Positions 40,363 through 42,441 of a DNA stretch of 64,000 bases are shown here, piece by piece; the first letter of the stretch is position 1; every line of letters starts with the position of its first letter. The DNA comes from Gammaproteobacteria bacterium. Its GTDB lineage: Bacteria > Pseudomonadota > Gammaproteobacteria > Eutrophobiales > Eutrophobiaceae. Below the pieces are notes generated by a model. The model made no database searches. It saw nothing but the letters and a program-made list of their open reading frames with translations, and was not told where the DNA came from. Position numbers and translations under genes: made by a program. The DNA is taken from positions 1 through 64,000 of the forward strand of contig JAJDUB010000034.1 of NCBI GenBank assembly GCA_022826885.1, given 5' to 3'.

Positions 40363-40387
40363 GGGGACAGAATTGAATTCTGTTCCC
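40363..40387. repeat. 25-nt dispersed palindrome between convergent ctaB and rpoH
   Basis: GGGGACAGAATT G AATTCTGTTCCC, one G-T wobble. Confidence 0.88.
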
Positions 40388-40390
40388 GGC

Positions 40391-41242
40391 TTAATCAGCG
40401 AAAGCGAGACGCAGTTTTTTCATTGCGTTCGCTTCCAGTTGCCGGATGCGTTCCGCGGAGACACCGAATTCCTCCGCCAGGGCGTGAAGCGTCACCTTGT
40501 CTTCGTTCAACCAGCGCTGCCGGATGATTTCCCGGCTGCGATCATCGAGAGTGAGTAATGCCGATGCCAGGTTTTTACGGTCAGCCTGGTCCGTCTGCTC
40601 CATGGCCAGTTGTTCTTCCGGGGAAGCGCGGCCGTCTGCCAGGTAACCGGCCGGAATGAAGCTGTCGTTTTCCGGGTCATCTGCGACCGGGCCATCGTAC
40701 GATGCGTCGTTGGCATTCAGGCGTTTTTCCATTTCCATCACGTCGGCAGCGCTGACACCCAGATCCCTGGCGACAGCGTTTACTTCGTCCTGGTTCATCC
40801 AGCCCAGCCGCTTTTTGCTGGAGCGCAGGTTAAAGAACAGCTTGCGCTGAGCCTTGGTCGTAGCGACCTTGACAATGCGCCAGTTACGCAGGATGAACTC
40901 GTGGATTTCAGCGCGGATCCAGTGTACTGCAAAAGAAACCAGCCGCACGCCCATCTCGGGATCAAAGCGTTTCACGGCCTTCATCAGGCCGATATTTCCT
41001 TCCTGGATCAGGTCCGCCTGGGGCAGTCCGTAGCCGCGGTAGCCGCGTGCGACCCGGACGACAAAACGCAGGTGAGACATCACCAGTTGTCGTGCGGCCT
41101 CAAGATCATGCAACTCATGCAGGCGCCGCGCCAGAGACTGTTCTTCCTCGGCGCTGAGCATCGGAATCTCGTTCACCGCATGAATATATGCTTCTATGGA
41201 GCTGGCAGGCAGCGCCGGCTGCAATGCTGTAATGTTATTCAT
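40391..41242 (-). CDS. rpoH: RNA polymerase sigma-32 factor
   Basis: [115 protein letters not shown] (RpoH box). Start trimmed to [16 protein letters not shown]. Confidence 0.98.
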
Positions 41243-41292
41243 GAAACACCTCCACAGAGAAACAAACCACAAAATCTCCGGTAATTAAGCCT

Positions 41293-41332
41293 GGGGAAAC
41301 TCTGATTTAATCAGAGGCTCCCTGATTTCCCC
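41293..41332. repeat. palindrome with CTCTGATTTAATCAGAG core in the rpoH leader
   Basis: GGGGAAA CTCTGATT T AATCAGAG GCTCCCTGA TTTCCCC; nested inverted repeats. Confidence 0.8.
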
Positions 41333-41337
41333 ACATA

Positions 41338-41364
41338 TTAGCACTCTTTTTAATAGAGTGCTAA
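41338..41364. promoter_or_regulatory. CIRCE element (HrcA operator)
   Basis: TTAGCACTC-N9(TTTTTAATA)-GAGTGCTAA, exact match to the CIRCE consensus, about 96-122 nt upstream of the rpoH ATG. Confidence 0.93.
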
Positions 41365-41433
41365 TATTTTTTCAAGTTCAATTGATATGGATGTGTAACC
41401 CATTGTTTTTGCGCGGTTTGGACAGGTCTTATT

Positions 41434-41456
41434 GGGGACAGAATTTGTCTGTCCCC
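41434..41456. repeat. dispersed palindrome downstream of ftsX
   Basis: GGGGACAGA ATTTG TCTGTCCCC, 9-bp perfect arms. Confidence 0.85.
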
Positions 41457-41463
41457 GGCGTGA

Positions 41464-42441
41464 CTATATCGGATCGATCGAGCGCAGATGGCGTTTTACG
41501 GAAAGCCAGGATCCTGTCAGGCCCAGACCTGCTCCGATGAGCACCAGGCCCAGGACCTCCCCGGCGCTGAGGGTAGCCAGAAAAAACCGGCTGCCGTACA
41601 GGTCTGCCAGCCGGGCAACCGGACCTTGCAGCAACGTCATGGAGACTTCAAGCATCAGCCAGGCAAGCATGCTGCCGGCAATGCCGTGGAGCATGCCCGA
41701 ATACAGGAACGGCCGGGCAATGAACGCGTCGGTAGCGCCGAACAACTTGTGGACCTCAATTTCCTGCCGGCGGTTGTGTACGGACATACGGATAGTGTTG
41801 CCGATCACGAGCAGTACGGCGCCGGCGAACAGGGCTGCAGCAATCATCACCCCGCGCTGAAATACCTCGATAATCTGGTGTAACCGTTGCGCCCACTGCC
41901 AGTCGAACTGGCCGAATTCCACTTCCGGAAGCGAATTCAGTTCCGACAGCAATGTACTGTTACCGGGAGACGTGGCGGATACGGATTGCGGACTGACGAC
42001 CAGCACGAACGGCAACGGGTTCCTGCCGAGGGCATCCAGGGCTTCGGCAAATCCTGAGTTCTGTTTATATTCGGCCAGGGCGTCTTCAGGGTTTATCACA
42101 TCAACTTCGATAATGTCTGAGCGGGCGCGCAGTCTGTCAGCCAGCGCAATAACCCGTTCTTCTTCAATGCCCGGAGGCAGGAACAGGGATATGTGTGAGG
42201 CTACGTCCAGATGTGAGGTAACCCGTTGCGCGTTTTCCAGCAGCGAATAAAAGCCTGCCGGAAGAGCCAGGGAGATTCCGATGACGGAAATACTTATCAG
42301 CCCGCCCGCCGGCTTCCTGTAAAGCTGTCCAAGGCTGGAAAAAAAGGCGCGGGCATGCTGCAGCAACCAATGACTGAAACGGCCGTGGCGCGCAGGAGTC
42401 GGTTTATTTCTGCTGCGCTGCTGTTTCATTCCTGCCGGCAT
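41464..42441 (-). CDS. ftsX: cell division protein FtsX
   Basis: HLDVASHISLFLPPGIEEERVIALADRLRARSDI; ISVIGISLALPAGFYSLLENAQ; ftsYEX-rpoH order. Confidence 0.95.
   Translation of the reverse strand: MPAGMKQQRSRNKPTPARHGRFSHWLLQHARAFFSSLGQLYRKPAGGLISISVIGISLALPAGFYSLLENAQRVTSHLDVASHISLFLPPGIEEERVIALADRLRARSDIIEVDVINPEDALAEYKQNSGFAEALDALGRNPLPFVLVVSPQSVSATSPGNSTLLSELNSLPEVEFGQFDWQWAQRLHQIIEVFQRGVMIAAALFAGAVLLVIGNTIRMSVHNRRQEIEVHKLFGATDAFIARPFLYSGMLHGIAGSMLAWLMLEVSMTLLQGPVARLADLYGSRFFLATLSAGEVLGLVLIGAGLGLTGSWLSVKRHLRSIDPI

Follow-up and report, generated by a model that had tools for sequence, protein, structure and literature searches.

In the 64,000-nucleotide stretch of DNA analysed here (the window), a perfect CIRCE operator lies in front of rpoH, the gene for sigma-32. 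Comparison of sequences makes it highly probable that this CIRCE functions as an HrcA operator, gating the transcription of rpoH, and that it overlies a sigma-E promoter corresponding to the P3 region of E. coli; it probably overlies a sigma-70 extended -10 as well. A CIRCE at rpoH is the usual state in hrcA-bearing Gammaproteobacteria, nearly universal at about nine of ten families, and E. coli is the exception. The relevant features of the window are:

41464 to 42441, minus strand: ftsX, the gene upstream of rpoH by gene order.
41374 to 41380, minus strand: putative sigma-E -35 element, TGAACTT (GGAACTT in sister genomes), a block found de novo at the same offset.
41338 to 41364, minus strand: CIRCE operator (HrcA site), a perfect 9-9-9 palindrome that matches the consensus and is kept in relatives.
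41359 to 41364, minus strand: possible sigma-70 -35, TTAGCA, with an 18-nt spacer to the extended -10.
41353 to 41357, minus strand: putative sigma-E -10 element, TCTAT (consensus TCTAA), with a 16-nt spacer to the -35.
41335 to 41343, minus strand: probable sigma-70 extended -10, TGCTAATAT (class consensus TGCTAAAAT), made of the right CIRCE arm and the next 3 nt, with a predicted function.
41293 to 41332, minus strand: palindromic repeat GGGGAAA...TTTCCCC in the rpoH leader, within an insertion of about 64 bp.
41250 to 41254, minus strand: ribosome-binding site of rpoH, TGGAG, recognized by sequence.
40391 to 41242, minus strand: rpoH, sigma-32 (NCBIfam rpoH_proteo, E 1e-125, above cut-off).

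The operator, TTAGCACTCTTTTTAATAGAGTGCTAA, is an inverted repeat of the CIRCE form, TTAGCACTC-N9-GAGTGCTAA, and agrees with the consensus at 18/18 arm bases. It ends 95 nt from the rpoH ATG (41242; stop at 40391) and overlaps promoter-like elements that sequence comparison shows to be conserved upstream of rpoH. The preliminary description had reported a perfect CIRCE at this place, about 100 nt from rpoH, and was accurate on both counts. No second CIRCE with three or fewer mismatches occurs in the 64-kb window, and shuffled sequences average 0.02. With a perfect site, so low an expectation per window at that threshold, and conservation of the CIRCE at rpoH across the class, we regard a chance palindrome or non-functional relic as scarcely credible. 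The gene order in the window is ftsY-ftsE-ftsX-rpoH, and the adjacency of ftsX and rpoH is shared with E. coli.

Conservation of the site, which had been put forward as a check, proved extensive. All 29 relatives with readable upstream DNA, mostly of the same family with some class neighbours, have a CIRCE before rpoH. Among 50 named gammaproteobacterial genomes, the site was found in 23/27 that have hrcA (including Dyella, Ketobacter, Thiodiazotropha, Plasticicumulans, Pleionea and Pseudoalteromonas) vs 0/23 that lack it (including Legionella, Aeromonas, Pseudomonas, Halomonas and Methylophaga). A survey of the class with one genome per family, taking Gammaproteobacteria in the GTDB sense that includes the former betaproteobacteria, found it in 85 of the 92 hrcA-bearing genomes vs 4 of the 30 in which no hrcA was detected (Fisher p = 4e-16), a very strong association even though the families are not fully independent; some absent hrcA calls may reflect assembly gaps. 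The survey counted only CIRCEs with N9 spacing, and at least one site scored absent (G185, L134) resembles a CIRCE with N8 spacing, so the prevalence is, if anything, too low. The contrast with E. coli drawn in the preliminary description holds in that E. coli is without hrcA, but the arrangement in the window is no oddity of one genome, since it is usual among hrcA-bearing members of the class. Two class members deserve mention for themselves: G046 has a tandem pair of CIRCEs upstream of rpoH (C61:202567-202625), and Pseudoalteromonas sp. FUC4 (L074) has a perfect rpoH CIRCE while the one HrcA match it gave has diverged strongly and falls short of the family cut-off (E 8e-33).

The same pattern bears on the idea that the palindrome is chiefly an RNA element or a terminator, forming a stem-loop with a plus-strand T run. 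The CIRCE does fall within a terminator-like call on that strand, but no plus-strand gene closely precedes it, rpoH lying antisense between the CIRCE and ctaB. Moreover, the arms are a near-invariant CIRCE sequence in most families and are gone with hrcA, where a terminator would conserve pairing rather than sequence. We give this explanation very little credence. A search for structured RNA in Rfam gave a sub-threshold chance match only.

The class of the overlapped promoter was approached by aligning 64 rpoH sites by their operator, without presupposing a promoter. The profile shows GGAACTT at -16 to -10 before the CIRCE, that is, 16 nt before the TC that ends the left arm, and a TAA bias directly after that arm by which the terminal TC reads TCTAA; the resulting class profile, GGAACTT-N16-TCTAA, is the pattern of a sigma-E promoter. 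In 86 new families, at least five of the seven GGAACTT bases matched in 47 at the exact offset and in 58 when a shift of up to one base was allowed, vs 0-2 at larger shifts. The CIRCEs of groES in the same class served as a control: the GGAACTT block is found in only 2/28 of them (p = 1e-8), and they carry TTGAC-N16-TATTA, a sigma-70 promoter. Against the sigma-E consensus (GGAACTT, TCTRA, spacer of about 16 nt), the window has TGAACTT-N16-TCTAT, matching at 6/7 and 4/5 positions, with the TC of the -10 again supplied by the end of the left arm. Because the -10 is partly fixed by the CIRCE itself, the independent evidence for sigma-E comes mainly from the -35 block; and since about a third of the surveyed rpoH sites have no clear GGAACTT, another promoter must serve in such lineages. 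The earlier suggestion that the operator overlaps the likely promoter agrees with the conserved elements, though the promoter type appears to be sigma-E.

That suggestion had been coupled to a sigma-32 -35-like CTTGAAA just upstream on the minus strand. The motif exists (plus-strand positions 41370-41376), and would, as the -35 of a sigma-32 promoter, combine autoregulation of rpoH with HrcA repression. It is, however, the tail of the -35 block that reads TGAACTT in the window, and no CCCCAT-like sigma-32 -10 (CCC[CT][AT]) was found 11-16 nt after it. Congeners such as L087 (GGAACTTAAAAA) keep GGAACTT and not CTTGAAA, and the class profile at the rpoH CIRCE is likewise GGAACTT; it is relatives' conservation of GGAACTT-N16-TCTAA, together with the missing -10, that led us to reject the sigma-32 promoter, which we think very unlikely.

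A sigma-70 promoter has more in its favor. Past the right arm, rpoH sites continue with AAT and groES sites with three CAA-like bases; the final T (position 29) is present in 76/86 of the former vs 3/28 of the latter (p = 4e-14). The right arm with AAT probably forms a second promoter element, an extended -10 of sigma-70 type, TGCTAAAAT, and the left arm supplies TTAGCA or TTGGCA 18 nt upstream of it. It could accordingly be supposed that HrcA represses rpoH mainly through this sigma-70 promoter, with its -35 in the left arm and its -10 in the right, and that GGAACTT is minor or used only in envelope stress. The completion of a -10 in rpoH but not groES sites speaks for this, as does TTGGCA, a common left-arm variant that improves the -35. 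On the other side, most families have a strong GGAACTT at the fixed distance, the sigma-70 hexamer in the window is just TAATAT, and scanning the window for sigma-70 promoters returned none there at the scan threshold. We hold this division of roles to be unlikely and prefer the sigma-E promoter as the main one under the operator.

HrcA repression of rpoH, as first proposed, called for the repressor gene and invited a look for further CIRCE sites. The genome assembly examined (3.43 Mb, 83 contigs, 94.6% complete) has a single hrcA gene (C73:97831-98832, E 8e-100, above cut-off) and a single rpoE (C81:36033-36596, E 2e-86, above cut-off). At three or fewer mismatches it has exactly two CIRCEs, one upstream of rpoH and one upstream of groES (groESL). 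The expectation of other sites was thus borne out for groESL and not for grpE/dnaK, whose upstream DNA in this genome yielded no CIRCE; HrcA would therefore reach grpE/dnaK via sigma-32 alone. The presence of hrcA, the groES CIRCE, the conservation of the rpoH site and its co-occurrence with hrcA together strongly support the proposal that rpoH is under HrcA repression. Upstream of hrcA (L003 1400-1426) there is a CIRCE-like sequence with four mismatches, and relatives in the family, for example G012, have a good CIRCE (C6:111830) before hrcA (C6:111928); autoregulation of hrcA may be decaying in the genus of the window. Part of a second, near-identical groES (residues 50-95, 98% identity) is found in G000 at C5:29734-29871 and may be a duplicate or come from the assembly.

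HrcA activity depends on GroE, and HrcA is released when GroE is occupied, in Bacillus and others. What the sequences show directly is an operator that is conserved and co-occurs with hrcA, and a sigma-E element fixed around it; the gating steps that we infer would run as follows. Without stress, GroE-folded HrcA on the CIRCE would sit over the start site and -10 of the sigma-E promoter, blocking initiation and holding rpoH low even with active sigma-E. Unfolded proteins would titrate GroEL and so release HrcA, derepressing groESL directly and making rpoH accessible to sigma-E, in envelope stress, and to sigma-70. The sigma-32 then made would induce the remaining heat-shock genes, other chaperones and proteases among them. 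As a gate, rpoH would require cytoplasmic misfolding (through HrcA release) and respond to envelope stress (through sigma-E). Read-through from ftsX could bypass the HrcA gate.

The operator sequence and repressor family are those of the HrcA/CIRCE systems at groESL and hrcA-grpE-dnaKJ in Bacillus and many other bacteria, and groESL is a target both there and in the genome of the window. What differs here is the target, a gene for a sigma factor, and the overlapped promoter, which appears to be of sigma-E rather than sigma-70 type. The closest comparison for the promoter is E. coli, where the DNA upstream of rpoH reads TTGAACTTG-N15-TCTGAT and aligns without gaps to TTGAACTTG-N15-TCTATT in the window, so that TGAACTT-N16-TCTGAT has the same -35/-10 spacing as the window element; we take this E. 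coli element to be the sigma-E-dependent P3 promoter of rpoH. E. coli, among the control genomes of the hrcA search, gave no hrcA match, and its P3 region has no CIRCE, the right arm matching at only 4/9 positions.

The work of Permina and Gelfand (2003), which reportedly covers these groups and quite possibly lists rpoH for some of the genomes, lay outside our search of the open literature, in which we found no account of a CIRCE at a gammaproteobacterial rpoH or of a class-wide overlap with sigma-E. A CIRCE at rpoH is already published for Geobacter sulfurreducens, as a comparative-genomics prediction of a perfect site at -51 (Rodionov et al., 2004; PMC545781, Table 8). That case concerns a single genome of a deltaproteobacterium, with no sigma-E element described in the passages concerned (PMC545781).

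Since the site is widespread, and absent where hrcA is missing, we suggest that an old arrangement was lost together with hrcA. Sigma-E-like sites stand before rpoH in 13/23 of the named hrcA-less genomes, and a half-operator remains in a few hrcA-less genomes (Pseudomonas, Methylophaga, G155). The upstream DNA of E. coli rpoH holds no convincing CIRCE relic. As proof of loss, such relics were set aside, a pooled test being weak (p 0.02 for the left arm, 0.09 for the right). The broadest form of the hypothesis, to which we assign about an even chance, is that in all hrcA-bearing Gammaproteobacteria one composite element, an HrcA operator within a sigma-E promoter and sigma-70 extended -10, rules rpoH, so that signals of cytoplasmic misfolding (HrcA/GroE) and of envelope misfolding (sigma-E) are integrated at rpoH, P3 of E. 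coli being derived after hrcA loss. The E. coli model has sigma-32 regulated through the folding of its mRNA, the binding of chaperones and its degradation, and sees HrcA as a separate system found in other bacteria. If HrcA does gate rpoH as proposed, both systems would be one hierarchy in most gammaproteobacterial families, with sigma-E feeding through the HrcA gate; what E. coli has would be a reduced version of the circuit. It would follow for any hrcA-bearing species that deletion of hrcA raises rpoH transcription from the sigma-E promoter.

The window CIRCE lies further from the rpoH start than most, its far edge at -122 vs mostly -50 to -91 in relatives and -58 in the closest one, because of the leader insertion of about 64 bp, which is found in the window genome only and is absent from 5/5 congeners. 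Within it, the 40-nt palindrome GGGGAAA..CTCTGATTAAATCAGAG..TTTCCCC looks like an inserted dispersed palindromic repeat; partial copies occur elsewhere in the genome, related ones lying at C73:143318, C51:8262 and C81:20744. A conserved thermometer was considered for this hairpin and rejected, as none of the five congeners has it and the entire leader is no more stably folded than shuffled sequences (z -0.9). A family of dispersed palindromic repeats, GGGGACAGANTT..AANTCTGTCCCC, occurs on both sides of rpoH (window 40363-40391 and 41432-41460); with 89 half-matches genome-wide vs 2 for a control, these look like REP-type elements.
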